Of a DNA stretch of 64,000 bases, positions 14,957-26,550 are shown in pieces. This DNA comes from Litoreibacter halocynthiae (lineage in GTDB: Bacteria; Pseudomonadota; Alphaproteobacteria; Rhodobacterales; Rhodobacteraceae), in NCBI RefSeq assembly GCF_004365635.1, contig NZ_SOBH01000002.1, positions 124,001-188,000 on the forward strand. Direction: 5' to 3'. The number at the start of each line of letters is the position of its first letter. Position 1 is the stretch's first letter. The notes below the pieces were generated by a model. That model saw nothing but the letters and a program-made list of their open reading frames with translations. It did not search any database and had not been told where the DNA came from. The translations under genes and the position numbers were made by a program.

Positions 14957-16012
14957 ATGCCCATCTACTACGGATATTCCAACGCCATTTTTGGCACGCA
15001 GAGCACGGTCAACGGCTCTGCGCATAACTATGCCTTTGGCCCACCGTCGGGCGGGACATGGTCTTGGACAGGCGTATCCACCAGCTTCCATGTGCGCGAA
15101 AACGACGGCGCAACCCAGTACAATGGTGATCCGACCAACGAACAAATCAGCGCCCAAGAGCAATTTGGCGGGGTGGGCGAGCAAGTTACGCTGATCGATG
15201 GGACCTATTACCAGACGATCTGGGACTACACATTCCAAGTCACCGCGCCCGACGGCACCGTTTATCGCATCGGCGTCATCGACGTTGATTTGAACACCGA
15301 CGACGACGTCCAAGACACCGTCGGCGGGGTTGCGGAAAACGGCTATTATCTGGTGTTCCCTGACGGCGTGCCGCCTGCCGGCGTCAACTATACCATTGGC
15401 GGCATTGTCGAAAACGACAACATGACACCCCATACGGGTCTTGGCGCGCAGGTGGTGTGCTTCGCCGCCGGAACCCTGATCGAGACCGAAAATGGCCCCG
15501 TCGAGGTGCAATATCTGCAACCCGGTGACATGGTCATGACCCGCGATGCCGGGCTTCAGGAACTGACATGGACCGGCGGACGTCGCGTCGAAGCGACAGG
15601 CGATCTGGCCCCCGTCGTCATCACCAAAGGCGCACTTGGCAACGACCGCGATCTGGTGGTCTCGCCCCAGCACCGCATGCTGATCGAGGGCTGGCAGGCC
15701 GAGCTTTTGTTCGGTGAGGCGGAAGTCTTCGTGAAGGCCAAAGACCTTGTGAACGACGATACGATCTATGTCCGCGAAGGCGGCAAGGTCAATTACCACC
15801 ACATTCTGTTCGACGATCACCAAGTGGTGTTTGCTGAAGGGGCAGCTTCCGAGAGCTTCCACCCCGGCCCGCAAGCCCTTGGCGCGTTGGACCAAGGCCC
15901 GCGCGACGAGTTACTGCGCCTCTTCCCTGATCTGGCCCACGTGGCGGCCCCAGTCATGCCCGCCGCGCATATGAGCCTGAAAGGGTTCGAGGCGGCGTGC
16001 TTGCTAAACTGA
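14957..16012 (+). CDS. Hint-domain protein (intact nucleophile)
   Basis: A 351-residue protein. Residues 1-165 are an Asn/Gly/Thr-rich beta domain of unknown role. From Cys168 begins a Hint (hedgehog/intein) domain: VVCFAAGTLIET is block A with the catalytic Cys, and SPQHRMLIEGW near residue 235 is the block B-like His motif. Rhodobacteraceae carry many such Hint_2-type proteins, thought to be secreted and perhaps self-processing; the function is not established. There is no classical signal peptide, so export by a C-terminal signal is possible but not visible. The ATG follows GGGGCCTCCA, an indifferent ribosome site. Confidence 0.78.
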   Translation: MPIYYGYSNAIFGTQSTVNGSAHNYAFGPPSGGTWSWTGVSTSFHVRENDGATQYNGDPTNEQISAQEQFGGVGEQVTLIDGTYYQTIWDYTFQVTAPDGTVYRIGVIDVDLNTDDDVQDTVGGVAENGYYLVFPDGVPPAGVNYTIGGIVENDNMTPHTGLGAQVVCFAAGTLIETENGPVEVQYLQPGDMVMTRDAGLQELTWTGGRRVEATGDLAPVVITKGALGNDRDLVVSPQHRMLIEGWQAELLFGEAEVFVKAKDLVNDDTIYVREGGKVNYHHILFDDHQVVFAEGAASESFHPGPQALGALDQGPRDELLRLFPDLAHVAAPVMPAAHMSLKGFEAACLLN

Positions 16013-16139
16013 TGGCGCTCTTTGCGGACTTTGCCACCGTTTGCCTTGGGGAATTCAACGACCGCTTCCGGACCCAAAAGACTGTGACAGAAATCGACGG
16101 CTCATGGACAGACTTTTCTGATCCACCACTTTGATACTC

Positions 16140-16247
16140 TGGGTCACATACAAAGTCGACGCTGGCCGGCTTGAAGTCTATTGACCTCTGGTGCTGGTGA
16201 GGATGGTTGTAGTGATTAACGAAGATATTGATCTTCAGTGGGGCCAT
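16140..16247 (-). pseudogene. Transposase C-terminal fragment, IS3/IS481-like
   Basis: The minus-strand frame reads INIFVNHYNHPHQHQRSIDF and then KPASVDF. This fits the end of DDE integrase cores, whose pattern is F-V-x-H-Y-N-H-x-R-x-H-x-S-L, a spacer and P-A-D-V-x-F. Only about 36 codons are recognisable; nothing upstream in any frame continues the transposase, because the C45 gene ends 47 bases away. I read it as the remnant of an old insertion. No terminal inverted repeats or target duplication were seen. The flanking parts of the 16013-16293 interval show no gene. Confidence 0.5.
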
Positions 16248-16293: not shown

Positions 16294-17265
16294 TCAAGCC
16301 GCGCCAGGTATTTGGACTTGCCGCCGTCCTTCATTGAAATCATCCATCGCGAAGCTCCACGTAGTGCCGGGCCAACGGACTTCCATCTGTTGGAGCCGAG
16401 GCCGGTATATGGCAGTGTATAGCGTGCCAAAGCCAGCATCGAATGCTGTGGAATAGAGCGGAGGCTTCAGAAACGCACCGATGAACTTCTCCTCCGGGTC
16501 GCGGTGGAGCGTCAAGCGTTGCAGCAAGAACCGCTCACGCTCGACCGTGGCGGTGAACCGGGCGTGGCTGACCCATTCAACATTCTCTTGGTGGTTTGTG
16601 GCCACAGCGGCATGGGTGATGACGGCAGGCCGGTCGGGCGCCATCATCGCGGTTAAATAGCGGCGTTTGGCGTCCAAGACAGTAACGTTGTAGCTCATGT
16701 GGGTTGGAACGCGAGCCAGCACAGCGCCGGCCTCTTCCGCTGTCGCACAGGTTTGTAACACGTATCGCAAAATCAGTGGCACCCCGAAGCCATCGCCAAC
16801 AACGCGCCGCCCACCAAAAGTCAAGGAAATCGCTAGGCCCGCATCGTTCATGCCGTCGACCAATCCCCACAGCCCGTCCGAGGTGCCTAGTACCCGTCGA
16901 CCCTGCCAACCTGTATGCAGGATCAAGCTGTCAAACGCGTTAGGATTGTAGTCGTAGTTGCGTACCATGACCGGTTCTTTGCCCGGCCAAATCGCTTGGC
17001 TACAACCCGCAAGATACGGCGGCGGGCAATAGAAGCTTAGAAACCGCGCGGCCTGATCACCACCACCTGCCAAATCGCACAGGTCATCATACAGCGGCAC
17101 GATCTCGGGCATGTGCTCTTTGAGGGCACGCCTGCTTTCCAGATAACTGGCGCGCGCAGTATCCCCCTCTTTGAGCCACCAACGTTTGTAGTCAGGCCAA
17201 TATTCGGCGAAAAGCCCGGCCCATTTAGGACCGGGCGCTTCTTCGCTGAGGGCGCGCCAATGCAT
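16294..17265 (-). CDS. C45-family autoproteolytic acyltransferase/hydrolase
   Basis: A 323-residue Ntn-hydrolase-fold protein of the C45 peptidase family (acyl-CoA:6-aminopenicillanate acyltransferase-like). The likely self-cleavage site and nucleophile is Gly87-Cys88 in YLAGCSQAIW, followed by VMVRNYDYNP and GTSDGLWGLVDGMNDAGL, which match the core strands of the fold. Family members hydrolyse or transfer acyl groups on amides; the substrate is unknown here. It is the last gene of a four-gene minus-strand operon, nine bases after the ATP-grasp gene, which suggests it acts on the amide that enzyme makes. Confidence 0.78.
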   Translation of the reverse strand: MHWRALSEEAPGPKWAGLFAEYWPDYKRWWLKEGDTARASYLESRRALKEHMPEIVPLYDDLCDLAGGGDQAARFLSFYCPPPYLAGCSQAIWPGKEPVMVRNYDYNPNAFDSLILHTGWQGRRVLGTSDGLWGLVDGMNDAGLAISLTFGGRRVVGDGFGVPLILRYVLQTCATAEEAGAVLARVPTHMSYNVTVLDAKRRYLTAMMAPDRPAVITHAAVATNHQENVEWVSHARFTATVERERFLLQRLTLHRDPEEKFIGAFLKPPLYSTAFDAGFGTLYTAIYRPRLQQMEVRWPGTTWSFAMDDFNEGRRQVQIPGAA

Positions 17266-17274
17266 GCCGTCTCC

Positions 17275-18732
17275 TTAAAGAATCTTGAACGCCGGATCAG
17301 CCAGCGCAGGACCGGCATTTGCCACGGGCAGCGGCTTGCCGTCCACGGTTTTCTTGATCCCGTGGATCCATTTTTTGGCTCGTTCGTTCAGCTGGAAACT
17401 CTTGGTCATGGAGCGCCCCCGCGTCACCAGAATCCCAATGTCTGCCCCCTCGTATCGGTAGTCGCCCGGTTGCAAAATTCTCAGGAAGAACGCTTCGTTC
17501 TCGGACTCGACTGCGCGGCGGTGATAATCGAAGCGGTCGTACACGACACTACCGTCTTCGAGCATCTTGTAGATGCCAGTTTCCGGCGACTCTGTGCAGA
17601 TGTCCACGCCGTCATCGGTGTGCTTGATCACCATCTGAGACCAACTATCGATCATGTTGGGGTCGGCCCAACGATCGTTCAACTCGTCCACATCCAGATC
17701 AAATTTCTTCTTCGAGAACTCAAGCAGGTGGAACAGGAATAACGGCGCGTCCGCATGAGCGAACGCCGCGTGGTTCGTCATGGACGACGCACCAGTGATG
17801 CGCGGGTTCAGCTCTCCCAGCCACAAATCGCCTGTCTTTTTGTCAATCAGGAAGTCCAACTCAAAGTAGCCACGGTAGCCTTCTTTGCGCAGCTGTTCAC
17901 CGAACTTGAAAGTCAGGTCACGGGCCTTTTCGCGCACCTTCGGCGGGAAGGCGGTGGACAGGATTTCGTTGCCGCACCAGCCGCCGCGATAGGGTGTCAG
18001 TTCTTTAAAACCGACAAGTTCGGTCATCAGCGGGCCAACGATCGTGCCTTCCTTGGTGGCACACGCCTCGATAGCGGATCCGCGGCAGTCGATGCGCTTC
18101 ATGATCTTGATTTCACCCTCGCCTACGATCTCATGCTCGTGACGGCGGAAGTCCGCCTCGGATTTAATGAAGAACGTCGTGTGACCACTATCGCCAAACG
18201 CCGATTGCAACACCAGATCATGCCCGATGCCCGCCTTCTCGCAGGTGGCGCGTAGGTCGTCGTAGTCCTTCACCTCCGCCAGCACGTTCGGCACAGACGG
18301 CACGCCCGCCTTGTTGCCAATGCGCACGGTCTCGATCTTGTTGTCCATGCTCGTGCGCAGCTTGGCTTTTGGAAACCAAACGTCCGCGCCCAGCTCTTTG
18401 GACAGCCGTTCGGTCTCTTCGTCGAACATCAGAAACACGAATTTGGGCTTGCCGCCGCGCCGCTTTATGAAGTCGATGACTTCCTTGTGCTGAAGCAGAT
18501 AGTTGTTGATGTCCTCGATGGACTGGAATTCAGCATGGGGCTGCTCTGACGGACAGAACACGTTGGGGTGCTTGCCGCCGTAACAGTCGATGTAGCAGAT
18601 ATATTTGAAGTTCTTGACCCATTCGTCGAGACCCAGAAGGTTAAAGTTCGTGGCCGAAATAAAGTAGATGGGATCCTCGTTACGGTGGAAGAACCGGCGG
18701 ATCTCCGAGATATTTTTGAGCACTGTTGGCAT
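17275..18732 (-). CDS. Stand-alone ATP-grasp ligase (biotin-carboxylase-like fold)
   Basis: A 485-residue ATP-grasp enzyme. The N-terminal pre-ATP-grasp part spans about 1-125, the ATP-binding region starts around FPKAKLRTSMDNK (residue 120), and metal ligands are visible as Glu291 in GYFELDF and Glu307/Asn309 in WLGELNPRITGAS. About 150 C-terminal residues are specific to this group. Such proteins are often labelled biotin carboxylase, but no biotin carrier or carboxyltransferase is nearby, so a carboxylate-amine ligase is more likely. It lies between the decarboxylase (23 bases upstream) and the C45 gene. An AAAGGGA site precedes the ATG. Confidence 0.72.
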   Translation of the reverse strand: MPTVLKNISEIRRFFHRNEDPIYFISATNFNLLGLDEWVKNFKYICYIDCYGGKHPNVFCPSEQPHAEFQSIEDINNYLLQHKEVIDFIKRRGGKPKFVFLMFDEETERLSKELGADVWFPKAKLRTSMDNKIETVRIGNKAGVPSVPNVLAEVKDYDDLRATCEKAGIGHDLVLQSAFGDSGHTTFFIKSEADFRRHEHEIVGEGEIKIMKRIDCRGSAIEACATKEGTIVGPLMTELVGFKELTPYRGGWCGNEILSTAFPPKVREKARDLTFKFGEQLRKEGYRGYFELDFLIDKKTGDLWLGELNPRITGASSMTNHAAFAHADAPLFLFHLLEFSKKKFDLDVDELNDRWADPNMIDSWSQMVIKHTDDGVDICTESPETGIYKMLEDGSVVYDRFDYHRRAVESENEAFFLRILQPGDYRYEGADIGILVTRGRSMTKSFQLNERAKKWIHGIKKTVDGKPLPVANAGPALADPAFKIL

Positions 18733-18755
18733 AGTCGTCCCTTTCTTGTTCTTGT

Positions 18756-21497
18756 TTATTTGGCGGTGGCTTGAAGTGATTTCGCCTTCGGCAAGGCGGC
18801 CAATGCCTCTGGCGTGAATACCCGTAGCCCCAGATCGGGGCGGTAGCCGTGGATTTCGCTGACGTCGAGCGCCAGCATGAATGCTAGAATTTCCTGGCTT
18901 ACGACCTGCCCGGGCACCAGGATCGGAAATCCTGGCGGATAGGGTATGATGAATCCCGCCGAGACAACTTCTTGGCCTGCATCAAGTGCCTCCTGCAGCG
19001 AGCCGTCAAGCTCCAGATAATCGCAGTTGGTCTCCTCGTAGCTGAGATAATAGGCGGTGCGAATGTCCCCCTCCGGCGTCACGTGATCAGGCCGGAACGC
19101 GTCGTGGAACCTGCTGAAGTCAGGCAGCGGTGGATAGGTTTCCGTCAGGTTTTTAACCCGGCGATCAAACGATATTCGCTCCATCTTGGACGCATCATCG
19201 AGCAAATCGTCCAGCTCGTTTGCGATCTCGACCAAGACCTCGATCAGATAGGCCACCGAGGAGCGTGTCGTGCCGATGTTGGTCATAAACAAGACCGTGT
19301 TGCGCGAGGTTTTGTTGATCTGGATGCCGTATTTATCCATCAATATCTTTGTTTTAAATGTATCGCCATCCCATCCCGTGCCCCCCACGGCCAAGGTGAC
19401 GCGGGTTGCGTCCAGCACAAAATCGTCCTGCTCCCAGCAATCCCACATATCCGTCCAGCCCTGATCGTTATCAAAATAGCTGGTCACTCCACTTTGGCGG
19501 TGTTGTTCGGGGATCATGTCACCTGCGGTCAAAACCTTGAAATACTTCTGCAACTGGGGATGACTGCTGATCGCCTTGCGCATCGACATGGCGGCCTCGA
19601 TCTGGCGTTGTACAAACTCGAAGCCTTCCAACTCCACCTGTCGGCGACCCACGTCCAATGATGCGATGATCTGGTAGTTGGGCGAGGTCGACGTATGGGT
19701 CATATACGCCTCGTGAAATGACTGCTCCACTTCGCCTTTGAAGTCCTGATCGTTGATATGGATCATTGAGCCTTGGCGCAAAGAGGTCAGAGTTTTGTGG
19801 GTCGACTGTGTGGCGTAAACCCTGATCCTCGCATCGGGCGGGGCGATCAGCCGCGTATTGAGTAACGTCTCGTCCGTGGCGTCGGCCAGCTCCAACTGTT
19901 GCGCCTCGTAGGCCCGCTTGTGTGCTTCAGTCCGCAGCCGAACCCGCAGGTTGTTGGCGGTTCGCATCCCGGTACGCTGGCGGTAGGTGGGGCTAAACCG
20001 TGCGAAGGCAAACCACGCCTCATCCCACAAGAACACGAGGTCGGGCTTGATCGCCAGGCATTCCTCCATCACCCGCTCTACATTATAAACCAAGCCGTCG
20101 AACGTGCAGTTGGTAAGCAAAAGCATGCGTACCCGATGCAATTTTCCCGCCGCCTTAAGAGCCAGCAACTGGTGCTTGATTTCCTTAAGAGGCACGGCAC
20201 CGTACATGGAATATTCGTTCAGGGGGTAGCTGTCGAGATAGACAACTTCGGCGCCCGCCAGCACCATGCCGTAGTGATGCGACTTGTGGCAGTCGCGATC
20301 CACCAGAACGATGTCGCCGGGTCGTACCACGGCCTGCACCACAATCTTGTTGCAGGTCGATGTGCCATTGGTGGCGAAGAAAGTCTGCTTGGATCCGAAG
20401 GCTCGGCTGGCCAGTTCTTGAGCTTCCTTGATAGGTCCCTGTGGTTCCAACAGACTATCGAGACCACCGGACGTGGCTGAGGTTTCGGCGAGGAAGATGT
20501 TGGGGCCGTAGAACGCACCCATATCCTGAATCCAGTGGGATCGGGTGATGGACTTACCGCGGCTGATTGGCATCGCATGGAAGACGCCGGTTGGCTGTTT
20601 GGAGTACTCAACCAGCGCCGTAAAGAACGGAGTCTTGTTGCGAGCAGCAACGCCGCGCAAAATGTTGAGATGCAACTCCATAAAGTCTTCTTGGTTGTAG
20701 AAAACCCGCCTACAAATTCCCAAATCAAGTCCGGCGATGTCTTCGACAGAACGCTCGGTCACCAGATAGGCGTCCAATTCTGGGCGGACGCGGGCGATGA
20801 GGCGGCACAGTTCCGGGCCGTAGTCCTCGGGCAGCATGGCCTCGATTTCGCCGGTTTCGCTGGCATTGGTGATATACTTTCCAAGGATTTCGTTCTCGTT
20901 CTTGGATTTCAGAGCCAGTCCGGGGCGTACAACAATCGCCTGAATGTTGTGGTTGAAAAGCACTGCGATCAAGGCATCCTCAAGACTGGGGACGACGACG
21001 GCTTCGTAGTGAAACGGGTCCTCGGGGCGGCGCATGCGCGCGACATTGCTTTTTAGCCAGCGCTCTTGTTGGTCGTTGACGTTGTCGACGATCAGAACCT
21101 CGAAGTAGGGGCGGGCCATGGCGCGGGCTTCGGGCGACAGCAGTGCCTCGTCGTTGTGTTCTTCGTCATCGGTGCTGTCACGGTCAAGCGGGATGCTGCG
21201 GCGGCGATATGCCCCCGAGGTGAGCGCGCGCTTGACCCGGTTTACGGTGAATGACAGATCGTCAAAATTACCATGTTCAAACTGGCGGCGCATGTGGTCA
21301 AATGCAGACATTCCGGGAAATGCCCAATACGGTTCAATCAGCGCAAGCGAACTGAACAGATCGGCGACGCGAACCTTAATGGACGCGGCTTTCTTGGCAT
21401 TTTGCTCACGACACAGAGACGTCACGGCCTCACGCAAAGCGCTCCATCTGTCGGCGCGAAGTTGGGTCGCGGAATAATAGTCGCTGACGGAATCCAT
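18756..21497 (-). CDS. Orn/Lys/Arg-type PLP decarboxylase, unusually long
   Basis: A 913-residue fold-type I PLP enzyme of the basic amino-acid decarboxylase family. A receiver-like wing domain lies at about 130-200 (FEVLIVDNVNDQQERW). The PLP domain shows TFFATNGTSTCNKIV, DRDCHKSHHYG, FLWDEAWFAF and the cofactor Lys568 in TQSTHKTLTSLRQGS. A C-terminal domain follows (IIPYPPGFPILVPGQ). It is some 160 residues longer than the roughly 715-755 usual for AdiA, CadA or SpeF, mainly through an N-terminal extension and an insertion before the cofactor Lys (about 510-560). Substrate (Arg, Lys or Orn) cannot be decided by eye. ATG 21497 was chosen for its GGGAGAAG site. Confidence 0.85.
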   Translation of the reverse strand: MDSVSDYYSATQLRADRWSALREAVTSLCREQNAKKAASIKVRVADLFSSLALIEPYWAFPGMSAFDHMRRQFEHGNFDDLSFTVNRVKRALTSGAYRRRSIPLDRDSTDDEEHNDEALLSPEARAMARPYFEVLIVDNVNDQQERWLKSNVARMRRPEDPFHYEAVVVPSLEDALIAVLFNHNIQAIVVRPGLALKSKNENEILGKYITNASETGEIEAMLPEDYGPELCRLIARVRPELDAYLVTERSVEDIAGLDLGICRRVFYNQEDFMELHLNILRGVAARNKTPFFTALVEYSKQPTGVFHAMPISRGKSITRSHWIQDMGAFYGPNIFLAETSATSGGLDSLLEPQGPIKEAQELASRAFGSKQTFFATNGTSTCNKIVVQAVVRPGDIVLVDRDCHKSHHYGMVLAGAEVVYLDSYPLNEYSMYGAVPLKEIKHQLLALKAAGKLHRVRMLLLTNCTFDGLVYNVERVMEECLAIKPDLVFLWDEAWFAFARFSPTYRQRTGMRTANNLRVRLRTEAHKRAYEAQQLELADATDETLLNTRLIAPPDARIRVYATQSTHKTLTSLRQGSMIHINDQDFKGEVEQSFHEAYMTHTSTSPNYQIIASLDVGRRQVELEGFEFVQRQIEAAMSMRKAISSHPQLQKYFKVLTAGDMIPEQHRQSGVTSYFDNDQGWTDMWDCWEQDDFVLDATRVTLAVGGTGWDGDTFKTKILMDKYGIQINKTSRNTVLFMTNIGTTRSSVAYLIEVLVEIANELDDLLDDASKMERISFDRRVKNLTETYPPLPDFSRFHDAFRPDHVTPEGDIRTAYYLSYEETNCDYLELDGSLQEALDAGQEVVSAGFIIPYPPGFPILVPGQVVSQEILAFMLALDVSEIHGYRPDLGLRVFTPEALAALPKAKSLQATAK

Positions 21498-21563
21498 CGG
21501 TTCTTCTCCCAATTAGGGCTAAAACACGATGAACCCGCAACTTTATGCCGCAGACCCTCTGTT

Positions 21564-22538
21564 TTAGTTACCTGGTGTCTTGCCCATCGCGGGCGAAACC
21601 CCGAACCCCAGTTTCGGTTCGCGGTCAAATATTTCGGCCTCAGCGCTGGCTGGTACATCTACATGCAACCCTGCGCGGGACCCCTGATGAGGCACCTGAA
21701 GGGGCCCAAGCGTGTTCAAGAATGCGTCCGTGCCGCTGGTGCGGTCATAGACAGAGAAATCTGTGGGCCGATCGCGGAAGCTTTTGAGGACCTGACCCAG
21801 ACCTTTCATGCCCGTCTCGCGTTGGCGGCGCACCATCGACAGATCGACCTCGATCGGGAACATGTCTTCTTGACCCGCCGACTGATGCAAGACCAGAGAT
21901 GTTGGGTCAACGACGAGTGACTTGCCGACACCGCCGGCGCCCAATCCATTGACGTCAATGACATAACACTGGAACTGAGCTGCGGTCGCCCGCGCGATGG
22001 CAAGCTCCGCGTCGCGGTCAGTTGTGCCGGTCAAGACCGGGTGCAACAGCACTTCCACGCCTTGTGAGGTAAGCTGACGGGTCGTCTCGGGGAACCACAT
22101 ATCGTAGCAGATCGACAACCCAAAGCGACCCACATCTGGCACATCAAAGACGCAAAAATCCGTGCCCGCAGCGACACCCGCCTCGTAGGGGAGGAATGGG
22201 AACATCTTGGCGTAGCGGCGAATGACCTCGCCATCTGGATTGATAACCAGAGACGTATTGTAAACCTTACCGTCCTCTGGATTCGTCAAGAACATCGAGC
22301 CGGGGATCAGCCAGATCTTGTGGCGGCGAGCGGCCTCGCAGAACCGATCAATAACGTCGTTTTCGGGCGGGAGCTTGAATTTTTCCAAAGGTCCAAACGG
22401 CGCGAGCTCGCTGAACAACACCATTTGGGTCCATGGAAAGCGCATCATCAGCACATCAAGGCGCTGCATCATGCCGTCAACATTGGGCTGAAGGGCATTG
22501 ACGTACATTTGCACGCCTGCAATTGCGAAAGGGGTCAT
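21564..22538 (-). CDS. Carbon-nitrogen hydrolase (nitrilase-fold amidase)
   Basis: A 324-residue member of the nitrilase superfamily. The catalytic triad is visible: Glu44 in LFSELAPFG, Lys111 in RRYAKMFPF, and Cys144 in LSICYDMWFPE. These enzymes cleave amides or carbamoyl groups; N-carbamoylputrescine amidase is one member, which would suit a polyamine context, but the substrate is not proven. It is the first gene of the minus-strand operon; the decarboxylase starts 66 bases after it. I chose ATG 22538 (GGAG ten bases upstream) over ATG 22586, which has no ribosome site. The last 45 residues are outside the conserved fold. Confidence 0.82.
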   Translation of the reverse strand: MTPFAIAGVQMYVNALQPNVDGMMQRLDVLMMRFPWTQMVLFSELAPFGPLEKFKLPPENDVIDRFCEAARRHKIWLIPGSMFLTNPEDGKVYNTSLVINPDGEVIRRYAKMFPFLPYEAGVAAGTDFCVFDVPDVGRFGLSICYDMWFPETTRQLTSQGVEVLLHPVLTGTTDRDAELAIARATAAQFQCYVIDVNGLGAGGVGKSLVVDPTSLVLHQSAGQEDMFPIEVDLSMVRRQRETGMKGLGQVLKSFRDRPTDFSVYDRTSGTDAFLNTLGPLQVPHQGSRAGLHVDVPASAEAEIFDREPKLGFGVSPAMGKTPGN

Positions 22539-22935
22539 GTCTTGAATACTCCGTGAAAACAGAGGCGTCCCATCGGGGTCGTCCATCTCATTGTTTCACG
22601 CATCTTCTAAGCCTTTACATCCGGAACGGAAACAGGTGATCGGCGTACGCCCCGATTTGGTTTGACCAAGCATCCGTCAAGCAAAGCATAGGCAACAAGA
22701 ATTCAAAAGTCTGCCGAACTCGGCCTTCTCTTGCAACAAGATTCATAGAATTCAGGGGAATATGTTTAATATTTTTATCAAAACACGTGTATTCTGATCA
22801 AGATATGTAAGCTAACCCGCGATAATGCGCGGCGCTTGGGCCTTCTGACCCACCGCAGTTAGGTGTGCTGAGTCCAGTTAGCGTGTTTGGCGACGATGCA
22901 AACCGGCCTCGCAAGCCACGATACAAGGGCACAAA
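22539..22935. other. Divergent intergenic region between amidase operon and mgtE
   Basis: This 397-base gap has no gene. The middle (22755-22805) is AT-rich (TTTAATATTTTTATCAAAA) and is the likely site of the divergent promoters. The mgtE-proximal part can fold (see the candidate leader RNA). TGATCAAG at 22796 also occurs at 25811 before the aminotransferase gene; this is only an eight-base match. Confidence 0.5.
22811..22882 (+). ncRNA. Candidate structured leader of mgtE
   Basis: GCTAAC at 22811-22816 pairs with GTTAGC at 22877-22882 and would close a junction. Inside, CCGCG (22817-22821) pairs with CGCGG (22828-22832) around a six-base loop, and TGGG (22837-22840) pairs with CCCA (22849-22852). 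The element ends 53 bases before the mgtE start. Mg2+-sensing leaders are known before mgtE and mgtA in other phyla; I do not recognise this one as a known class, and pairing by chance is possible. Confidence 0.35.
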
Positions 22936-24375: not shown

Positions 24376-25761
24376 TTAGGCGTGCTGCTCTGCAATCGCT
24401 GCTGCAAGGGATGCCTCAAAGATCGCCAACCCTTCGTCGATAATCTCGTCTGAAGCTGTCAGCGGCACCATGATCCGCAACGCATTGCCGTGCATACCGC
24501 AACCCAGCAAGATTAAGCCGCGTTGCAACGCATGGGCTATCACCGATTTCGTTAGCGCCGCGTCAGGCTTGGCCGTTTCAAAGTCGGTCACGAACTCAAC
24601 GGCCAGCATCGCGCCAAGCCCACGGATGTCCCACATACGAAGGGGCGAAATACGTGCGCCGATATCGGCAAACCGCTCGCGGAAATATGCACCGAGCGCT
24701 GTCGAGCGAGCCAGAAGACCCTCTTCCTCAATAGCCTCGATCGCGGCAAGGGCCGCAGCACAGGCAACAGGGTTGCCGCCATATGTACCGCCCAAACCGC
24801 CCGGGATGACCGCATCCATTACTTCGGCGCGACCGATCACACCGGCAATCGGATAGCCGCCCGCCATGGATTTTGCCACGGTGATCAGGTCTGGCACAAC
24901 GCCGGAATGTTCAATCGCAAACCAGGTTCCAGTCCGTCCGAAGCCCGCTTGAATTTCATCGGCGATCAGCATGATGCCATGGGTATCGCAGATTTCTCGC
25001 AGCGCTTTGAGCATTTCGAATGGCACTGGCGTATAGCCGCCTTCGCCCAGCACGGGTTCGATAATGATCGCAGCAACGCGCTCCGGCTGCGCATCGGTCA
25101 GGAACAGGTTTTGCAAACCCGTCAGTGCGTCCTGCACGGTGATGCCATCACGCAGACTTGGGAAGGGTGCGCGGAAGATATCGGACGGGAACGGGCCCAC
25201 GTCCTTTTTGTATGGCGAGATTTTGCCAGTCATGCCCAGCGTCAACAAGGTGCGACCATGGTAGCCACCGGTAAACGCGATCACGCCCGGACGTCCCGTG
25301 GCGGCGCGGGCGATCTTGACTGCATTTTCCACAGCCTCGGCACCTGTCGTGACAAGCAGCGACTTTTTGGCGTGATCCCCGGGTGCCAGCGCGTTCAGCT
25401 TTTCGGCGAGCGCGACATAGGGCTCGTAGGGGACAACTTGGAAGCTGGTGTGGGTGTAGTGGTCCTCTTGTGCCTTTGCCGCAGCAATAACCTTCGGGTG
25501 ACGGTGACCAGTGTTGAGAACTGCAATACCCCCTGCAAAGTCGACAAAGCGATTGCCTTCGACGTCCCAGAGTTCGGCATTTTCGGCATGGCTCGCGAAG
25601 ATAGGCGCGGCAGAAGCAACCCCCCGTGCAACAGCGGCTTCGCGCCGGGCCACCAGATCCGCATTGGTCTTGGTGGGCTGTACAGTTTCCGGTACAATCG
25701 AAATGCTCGGCTTGACCTTCGCGGCGGTTTTGCGAGACTTCTTTTTTGCTGTATTCGTCAT
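24376..25761 (-). CDS. gabT: 4-aminobutyrate aminotransferase (class III)
   Basis: A 461-residue class III PLP aminotransferase. Key segments are [50 protein letters not shown] and the cofactor-Lys motif [10 protein letters not shown]. They fit GABA or putrescine-derived omega-amino acid aminotransferases (GabT/PuuE). The first 30 residues are a Lys/Thr-rich extension ([15 protein letters not shown]) absent from the usual 425-residue enzymes. The enzyme would convert 4-aminobutyrate to succinate semialdehyde. It is divergent from the PuuR-like regulator gene, which suggests control by it. Confidence 0.85.
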
Positions 25762-25839
25762 TTCTGGTCGTCCTTGTAAGGCTGAAGGCCATTTCTCTTG
25801 GCGGGCCGTATGATCAAGTGTTTAAAATTCTCAGTAATG

Positions 25840-25995: not shown

Positions 25996-26550
25996 GTGGA
26001 TATTGGAAAAAGACTTCAAGCACTCCGAAAGGCACGTGGTCTGTCACAGCGTGAACTTGCCTATCGTGCAGGCTTGACGAACGGAACGATCTCGCTGATC
26101 GAGCAAAATAAGACCAGTCCTTCGGTCGCTTCGCTCAAGAGCCTTCTAGACGCAATTCCTATGAGTATTGCAGAGTTTTTTGCAAACATTGAACAGGAAC
26201 AACAGGCTAGCTATTTCTATGCTGCGGATGAGTTCATCGAAATTGCCCCACAATCTGATGGTGCTACCGTATCATTGCGCCAACTCGGACAAGCCAGCCA
26301 ACATGCGTTGCAACTTCTCGACGAAACTTATCCACCAAATGCCGACACCGGGCCCGAGCCGCTGTCCCATATTGGTGAAGAAGCGGGGATCGTGATCCAA
26401 GGCGAAATTGAGATCACGGTGGCGGATCAAGTTAAGGTGCTCCGAGTTGGCGAAGGGTACCTCTTTGACAGCCAATTACCCCACCGGTTCCGCAACGTAA
26501 GCGATTCCACGTGCCGGATTATCAGCGCCTGCACGCCACCGACCTTTTAG
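25996..26550 (+). CDS. puuR: XRE-cupin regulator, PuuR-like
   Basis: A 184-residue regulator with an XRE helix-turn-helix (about 4-58: LSQRELAYRAGLTNGTISLI) and a C-terminal cupin (about 115-180). The whole protein resembles E. coli PuuR, including SIAEFF after the HTH and a nearly identical C terminus (CRIISACTPPTF here). PuuR represses putrescine utilisation and is released by putrescine. The start is GTG 25996, giving the family's short N terminus. It is divergent from gabT, with the whole amine cluster nearby, so a polyamine-responsive role is likely; the exact targets are inferred. Confidence 0.85.
   Translation: MDIGKRLQALRKARGLSQRELAYRAGLTNGTISLIEQNKTSPSVASLKSLLDAIPMSIAEFFANIEQEQQASYFYAADEFIEIAPQSDGATVSLRQLGQASQHALQLLDETYPPNADTGPEPLSHIGEEAGIVIQGEIEITVADQVKVLRVGEGYLFDSQLPHRFRNVSDSTCRIISACTPPTF

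Follow-up and report, generated by a model that had tools for sequence, protein, structure and literature searches.

The 64-kb window analysed here, which comprises positions 124,001 to 188,000 of contig NZ_SOBH01000002.1 of Litoreibacter halocynthiae, carries an operon of four minus-strand genes (window positions 16294–22538). The genes encode a nitrilase-fold amidase, a pyridoxal phosphate (PLP)-dependent decarboxylase, an ATP-grasp ligase and a C45-family hydrolase, separated by gaps of 66, 23 and 9 bases. The four genes are a real co-inherited unit, and a γ-aminobutyrate (GABA) transaminase gene, gabT, located about 2 kb away, shares both its distribution and a putative operator motif. The operon could be explained as a catabolic module linked to gabT, in which amide protection accompanies the conversion of a basic amino acid, or of the corresponding diamine, to a GABA-type omega-amino acid; we give this reading a probability of roughly 0.5. 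The broader proposition that the operon is catabolic and connected to GABA or omega-amino acids is held with good confidence.

Co-inheritance of the operon and its link to gabT

Among 61 related genomes, strong matches to the ligase (E ≤ 1e-280) occur in eight; weak matches in 15 further genomes lie in frames of 887–1283 amino acids, a length like that of pyruvate carboxylase. The decarboxylase and the C45 hydrolase are each found in the identical eight genomes, and the nitrilase in nine, these being the eight ligase carriers and one other member of the class (G037). Within its own genus the operon is present in 4 of 21 genomes. Relative to the ligase of the window, those from four other genera show 94, 93, 88 and 81% identity and one from the same genus shows 84%; since some copies from other genera are thus closer than one from the same genus, lateral transfer of the operon is suggested. 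On a broader scale the genes are thinly spread: with the host genome included, the ligase is present in 11 of 398 genomes of the phylum, the decarboxylase in 11 of 385 genomes of the class, and the C45 hydrolase in 15 of 372.

At least 549 stretches encoding relatives of the ligase were found in one scan of one genome collection. The best 80 of these were fetched, a sample in which near relatives are over-represented; 77 contain all four genes, and the remaining three are cut by a contig end. Across 113 ligase loci, the order nitrilase-decarboxylase-ligase-C45 is found in 92, decarboxylase-ligase-C45 in nine, nitrilase-ligase-C45-decarboxylase in three, and other arrangements in nine. Plasmids and members of further proteobacterial classes also carry the set, sometimes in changed order. 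Pairwise distances among the four proteins are correlated (rho 0.67–0.80, with none of 300 permutations per pair as high) over the 79 loci in which all four are near full length, from up to 107 with a ligase; this correlation is evidence of common descent or of transfer, but not of function. An earlier note, made from the sequence alone, had asked whether the four families might rarely occur together elsewhere; their co-occurrence is instead strong.

Neither gabT nor the gene for a PuuR-like regulator was covered by the finding in that note. The two genes are divergent from one another and lie 2–4 kb from the operon, with mgtE between gabT and the operon (Table 1). The gabT subtype of the window (E ≤ 1e-200) is present in 6 of the 61 genomes, all of them among the eight operon carriers (hypergeometric 5e-7, a nominal value because the genomes are related and not independent). 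In the host genus, the subtype is found at 80% identity or more in exactly the four genomes that carry the operon, and two others have relatives of 54–57% identity. The gabT subtype of the window and of four further loci (L029, L030, L034 and L036) has a lysine-rich N-terminal tail preceding the catalytic domain. L029, from Litoreibacter arenae, carries the operon together with gabT and the HTH-cupin regulator gene.

Comparison of 17 gabT upstream regions, including that of the window, yielded the motif WWTTAAACR, the core of which (GTTTAAAA) is found in 14 of them. Just two copies of the motif occur in the window, one upstream of gabT and one upstream of the operon. The match at gabT arises by construction, because the motif was derived from gabT regions, and the match at the operon is the independent one. 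No pair of 18-mers with 15 or more matches is shared by the two promoter regions. Across the loci, the 300 bases preceding the nitrilase gene were compared in three groups. Where the regulator is present and TRAP genes are absent, 8 of 16 loci have the motif there, against 0.2 expected from shuffled sequences, and these eight represent about two lineages. Loci with neither regulator nor TRAP genes have it in 1 of 30 cases (0.3 expected), and those of the TRAP type in 3 of 50 (0.4 expected). In 12 of 45 TRAP-type loci, the motif precedes the transporter gene (an unshuffled count, for which motif density gives an expectation of 0.012 per region). Three other stretches of the host genome that contain ureohydrolase and agmatine deiminase genes have neither a copy of the motif nor a link to the operon.

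Table 1. Features of the operon and its surroundings, in window coordinates
Feature	Position	Strand	Remarks
C45-family Ntn hydrolase/acyltransferase	16294..17265	-	323 aa; nucleophile Cys88 after Gly87
ATP-grasp ligase	17275..18732	-	485 aa; NF005096; AlphaFold model
PLP-dependent Orn/Lys/Arg-type decarboxylase	18756..21497	-	913 aa from ATG 21497
Nitrilase-superfamily amidase	21564..22538	-	324 aa; Glu-Lys-Cys triad
Intergenic region, presumed operon promoter	22539..22935	-	between nitrilase gene and divergent mgtE
Motif TATTAAACA (WWTTAAACR), putative operator upstream of operon	22763..22771	-	
gabT, 4-aminobutyrate-2-oxoglutarate transaminase	24376..25761	-	TIGR00700 550.1 bits (cut-off 506.65)
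Motif TTTTAAACA, gabT promoter region, second window copy	25819..25827	-	
Helix-turn-helix (HTH)-cupin regulator, PuuR-like	25996..26550	+	NF007408 155.6 bits, under cut-off 211

The four enzymes

The operon, its gaps and the four family assignments made in the earlier note are borne out by open reading frame (ORF) coordinates and profile scores. The catalytic residues it had reported are likewise present in all four proteins, the decarboxylase lysine being judged against solved relatives. The nearest family-named neighbours are the divergent mgtE at the 5′-end and, at the 3′-end, a convergent gene for a Hint-domain protein (PF13403; 14957–16012). A 97-aa minus-strand ORF (15954–16247), lying 46 bases 3′ of the C45 gene, was considered as a fifth gene and is excluded from the unit, because a search of the fetched loci matched one (L029) alone.

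The ATP-grasp protein exceeds the cut-off of a single NCBIfam model, NF005096 (PRK06524, 'biotin carboxylase'; 757.4 vs 684), and matches no Pfam family. It has the hallmarks of the superfamily, with the ATP/Mg residues Lys132, Glu307, Asn309 and Arg311 (K and E-x-N-x-R) invariant in 27 sequences, and its AlphaFold model (predicted local distance difference test, pLDDT, 85.4) adopts the ATP-grasp fold. In biotin carboxylases, bicarbonate and biotin are bound by the motifs ERDCSxQRRxQK and RIQVEH. Both are missing from the ligase, where the aligned positions read GFKELTPYRGGWCGNE and RITGAS, and a biotin-carboxylase function is set aside because of their absence. The predicted fold cannot decide among a carboxylase, a PurK-like enzyme and an amide ligase, since the best rows for carboxylases, PurK and the pyrrolysine ligase PylC lie within 1 Z of each other among the families listed. 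In two loci (L160, 11606–13258; L162, 11963–13783), the longest ligase frame has a long Lys/Ala-rich N-terminal extension from a putative start.

The C45 protein scores well above the cut-offs of PF03417 (106.7 vs 23.2) and NF040521 (183.4 vs 85). Cys88 is invariant and Gly87 nearly so in 22 sequences, this Gly-Cys pair being the presumed autoprocessing site; profile scores and site together place the protein in the C45/AAT family. A sequence search of the PDB gave weak matches alone (E 0.01 or worse). The comparison of predicted folds is clear, with the amide-cleaving isopenicillin-N acyltransferase nearest and residue 88 of the model aligned with residue 1 of penicillin V acylase chains. A C45 paralogue of about 45% identity lies directly 3′ of a PHB-depolymerase-family esterase gene on a Sulfitobacter plasmid (L196, 6914–9083).

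The decarboxylase has the features of the fold type I Orn/Lys/Arg enzymes (OKR_DC_1, PF01276, 267.8 bits; cut-off 27), and its PLP lysine is Lys568 in the sequence STHK, numbered from the start adopted here and aligned with solved relatives. Its C-terminal domain falls below the cut-off of PF03711 (22.1 vs 24.2). None of the named lysine, arginine or ornithine decarboxylase models scores over its curated cut-off (best 222.8 vs 968). The protein matches PDB 9n0n over its full length (E 2e-242) and is a full-length relative of the amino acid decarboxylase Rv2531c of M. tuberculosis, to which the entry 9N0O is assigned in the text available from PMC12910592. Decarboxylase relatives without a ligase adjoin AspT-type aspartate-alanine antiporters in three loci (L189, L190 and L191), and an HdeA/HdeB-family gene once (L189). 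Loci with the decarboxylase or the C45 gene alone, compared for a common substrate, yielded just the AspT-antiporter and PHB-depolymerase-esterase pairings.

The nitrilase scores 101.5 bits on CN_hydrolase (PF00795; cut-off 23.2). Its start is placed by homologue alignment, the ORF-finder start at 22586 being too long. Numbered from the adopted ATG, the triad Glu44-Lys111-Cys144 is invariant in 16 sequences, as in the nitrilase superfamily. On the N-carbamoylputrescine amidase model AguB (TIGR03381), the protein remains far below the cut-off (56.1 vs 410.25).

Gene contexts, a possible route and its rivals

For unannotated loci, neighbours were taken from a simple longest-ORF picker, and several names, including the universal-stress-like genes and the genes of L130, were given by eye. 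Because some of the ORFs picked near the core are on the wrong strand, the neighbour counts are rough and probably low. Among the 80 loci, 45 have a TRAP permease, 39 a TAXI protein and 45 transaminases of the AT3/gabT type. In many roseobacters, a TAXI-TRAP transporter and a universal-stress-like gene accompany the four genes and transaminases. On a Roseobacter plasmid (L119), the four genes are found with gabT, an FMN glutamate-synthase-type gene and a peptide/dipeptide ABC transporter. In another class of the phylum (L132), an ectoine cluster with EhuR, DoeA, DoeB and EutB, all over their cut-offs, also comprises an Lrp-type gene, the nitrilase, ligase, C45 and decarboxylase genes, an aldehyde dehydrogenase and a transaminase; the order in L134 is the same for the genes compared. 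On two plasmids (L120 and L124), the nitrilase and an Lrp gene face an array of permease, agmatinase, 2-ketoarginine decarboxylase, aldehyde dehydrogenase, ligase, C45, D-amino acid dehydrogenase, racemase and RidA genes. In L094 and L162, the set has agmatinase genes nearby that score above the cut-off, and in L161 one is assigned by clustering. Relatives of the nitrilase without a ligase are found near a 2-ketoarginine decarboxylase gene (L195, where the frame is open for 414 codons and the record annotates an opposite-strand gene instead) and between an Opp-type ABC transporter and an omega-aminotransferase (L193, 7310–15955; AptA 634.4, cut-off 500). The common thread of these contexts is the breakdown of basic amino acids and omega-amino acids.

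In the route that we propose, the PLP enzyme would act on arginine, ornithine or a near homologue, perhaps 2,4-diaminobutyrate in the ectoine clusters, and its decarboxylation product would be a diamine or agmatine. At the expense of ATP, the ATP-grasp enzyme would then form an amide between a carboxylic or amino acid and either this amine or an intermediate derived from it, so that the amide shields the amine. The free end may be oxidised by an aminotransferase and aldehyde dehydrogenase, or by an amine oxidase, encoded outside the operon. The C45 hydrolase could subsequently free the omega-amino acid, with the nitrilase-fold amidase acting on a second or small amide, and GabT would convert the omega-amino acid to succinate semialdehyde. 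We infer the substrates, the acyl partner, the oxidation step and the order of the coupling, oxidation and release. The earlier note had proposed that the decarboxylation product is joined into an amide by the ATP-grasp enzyme and that the amide is cleaved by the C45 and nitrilase enzymes, and this chemical idea is retained. The purpose it had suggested, a polyamine conjugate or other small molecule, is less supported, because the neighbours are largely uptake and catabolic genes and gabT shares the distribution and motif of the operon. Its statement that no described pathway has this set of enzymes agrees with our literature searches, in which none was found among open-licence PMC papers.

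The closest analogy is the Puu pathway of E. coli (PuuA-E), outlined in PMC9397018 as combining ATP-dependent amide protection, a hydrolase, a GABA transaminase and the repressor PuuR. The window resembles it in having gabT and the PuuR-like gene, the former scoring above its model cut-off and the latter below. The operon differs in its ligase, which is an ATP-grasp enzyme, in its C45 hydrolase, and in adding its own decarboxylase and nitrilase; PuuA and PuuD belong to families distinct from ATP-grasp and C45. A PuuA-family ligase, PuuB, PuuC and PuuD are not among the four genes of the operon, the rest of the genome not having been searched for Puu genes. By analogy, the operon is best read as a non-homologous counterpart of the gamma-glutamyl route of Puu. 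A second likeness is to insect Ebony and Tan, where a ligase conjugates an amine and a hydrolase releases it. The account in PMC5085778 describes Tan as resembling isopenicillin-N acyltransferase and as hydrolysing beta-alanyl amines after self-cleavage at Gly-Cys. Ebony differs in being nonribosomal peptide synthetase-like and not ATP-grasp, and the system is without GABA catabolism.

Several observations weigh against the proposed route. The main difficulty is that the arginine route of L120 and L124 has no obvious need for a protection step. Furthermore, the fetched stretches of these two loci and of L129 contain the nitrilase, ligase and C45 genes without the decarboxylase, a relative of which lies far from the others on the L120 plasmid, and six Rhizobium and S. 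meliloti stretches are without the nitrilase. Two of the eight operon-bearing genomes are without the gabT subtype, half of the 16 regulator-type loci have no motif upstream of the nitrilase gene, and the regulator itself falls short of the PuuR model. For the oxidation step, no amine oxidase or dehydrogenase and no aldehyde dehydrogenase is found among the scanned neighbours in the window, and a gene of the aldehyde dehydrogenase family was picked in 11 of the 113 loci. Rv2531c, the closest solved decarboxylase, is presented without a known activity in the available text of PMC12910592.

Among the alternatives, the operon could make a polyamine or amine conjugate, such as a signal, osmolyte, siderophore-like or antimicrobial amide, that is trimmed or released by the C45 and nitrilase enzymes. 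A ligase together with a decarboxylase is a biosynthetic pairing, and some rhizobial copies (L122, L125 and L126) lie near genes for ribosomally synthesised and post-translationally modified peptides (RiPPs). PylC-like ATP-grasp enzymes make amino acid-lysine amides, and the predicted fold of the operon ligase fits PylC as well as it does the carboxylases, at 10% identity and with PylC itself in a biosynthetic context. We nevertheless consider a conjugate unlikely, since one ligase is accompanied by two hydrolases, the surrounding genes mainly serve import and catabolism (GABA transaminase, agmatinase, ectoine hydrolase and deacetylase, and arginine-route enzymes), and gabT co-occurs with the operon and has the motif in common.

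Somewhat more doubtful is an oxidative variant, in which the PLP enzyme would use O2 to form an omega-amino or guanidino amide, the nitrilase would hydrolyse it before GabT acts, and the ligase and C45 enzyme would serve a side product or acyl recycling. PLP decarboxylases that form amides have precedent, and DavA hydrolyses 5-aminovaleramide in the manner imagined for the nitrilase. The position of nitrilase relatives beside the omega-aminotransferase of L193 and in or near 2-ketoarginine clusters fits this variant, as does an annotated amidase gene following the transporter genes in three nitrilase-free rhizobial loci (L122, L126 and L127). It leaves the C45 enzyme and ligase unexplained, however, and the nitrilase, ligase and C45 genes persist in stretches without the decarboxylase, while the ligase-free decarboxylase relatives lie by AspT-type antiporters, as expected of ordinary decarboxylases.

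A carboxylase role for the ATP-grasp enzyme, in which an amine or guanidino group would be carboxylated and the ureido or carbamoyl product hydrolysed by the nitrilase, is improbable. The NCBIfam name, the likeness of the fold to biotin carboxylase and PurK, and an ORF in a Cupriavidus locus (L130) that by eye resembles N-carbamoyl-amino-acid hydrolases would agree with such a role. Against it stand the missing bicarbonate and biotin motifs, the low score of the nitrilase on the N-carbamoylputrescine amidase model, and the plasmid loci, whose incomplete gene tables annotate no adjacent biotin carrier or carboxyltransferase. An acid-stress system, with the decarboxylase consuming protons and the other genes disposing of the amine, recalls the AspT-type antiporters of L189–L191 and the HdeA/HdeB-family gene of L189, and is highly improbable given that no antiporter is found among the scanned window neighbours, that none is annotated next to the four genes of L119, and that nitrilase, ligase and C45 genes occur in stretches without a decarboxylase.

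Rhizobial plasmids and wider meaning

The rhizobial part of the analysis covered six plasmid loci, from R. leguminosarum and S. meliloti. In five (L122, L125, L126, L127 and L128), the decarboxylase, ligase and C45 genes, the last of these broken in some, are followed by a peptide-type ABC transporter; all five have an RpiR regulator, and all except L125 an amidase. The set adjoins nifHDKEN in L127 and lies about 10 kb from nifA-nifB in L121, and no nif genes are seen in the remaining rhizobial stretches. The copies in L121 and L125 look broken. Broken or partial decarboxylase, ligase or C45 genes are present on several rhizobial plasmids, including partial matches in S. medicae. Turnover of the module on these plasmids is suggested.

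Sigma-54 promoters are recognised by their -24/-12 elements and NifA sites by the pattern TGT-N10-ACA. A sigma-54-like -24/-12 site with 10 of 11 consensus letters is found upstream of the decarboxylase gene in five of the six loci, about 95–208 bases from its start in four and 628 bases in L125, where the annotated start is internal. The site in L127 has 9 of 11 letters and does not stand above shuffled sequences (38/200). An exact NifA-like TGT-N10-ACA lies 102–106 bases upstream of the -24/-12-like site in four of the six loci, and one with a single mismatch at 105 bases in a fifth; the five sites are not independent, because four have identical letters. Counting all such sites in the rhizobial loci, 12 of 19 are paired with TGT-N10-ACA, and since some pairings precede other genes, the promoter is one that is repeated on these plasmids. 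In L121, L122, L125, L126 and L128, the repeated NifA/sigma-54-like promoter has its TGT-N10-ACA either 102–106 or 80–91 bases upstream of the -24 site.

It is possible, and offered tentatively, that the operon is a hitherto undescribed route by which basic amino acids reach GABA under amide protection, composed of an ATP-grasp ligase and a C45 hydrolase and moving laterally among proteobacteria. In rhizobia, where two of the loci lie near nif genes, it would have come under NifA/sigma-54 control and may feed bacteroids with carbon and ammonia drawn from basic amino acids or peptides of the host. In S. meliloti bacteroids, an arginine transamination network (CATCH-N) is proposed to carry catabolism from arginine to GABA in nitrogen-fixing cells (PMC7268258). 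The words nitrilase, ATP-grasp and glutamyl have no occurrences in the main text of that paper.

The proposed route provides a testable function for a misleadingly named family, the NF005096 'biotin carboxylases' with their at least 549 encoding stretches, and likewise for decarboxylases of the Rv2531c type. Should the promoter-like sites in rhizobia function as their sequences suggest, an unassigned enzyme set would bear on bacteroid metabolism during nitrogen fixation. If the route is true, it would be a second, chemically parallel answer to the problem of amine protection, beside gamma-glutamylation.

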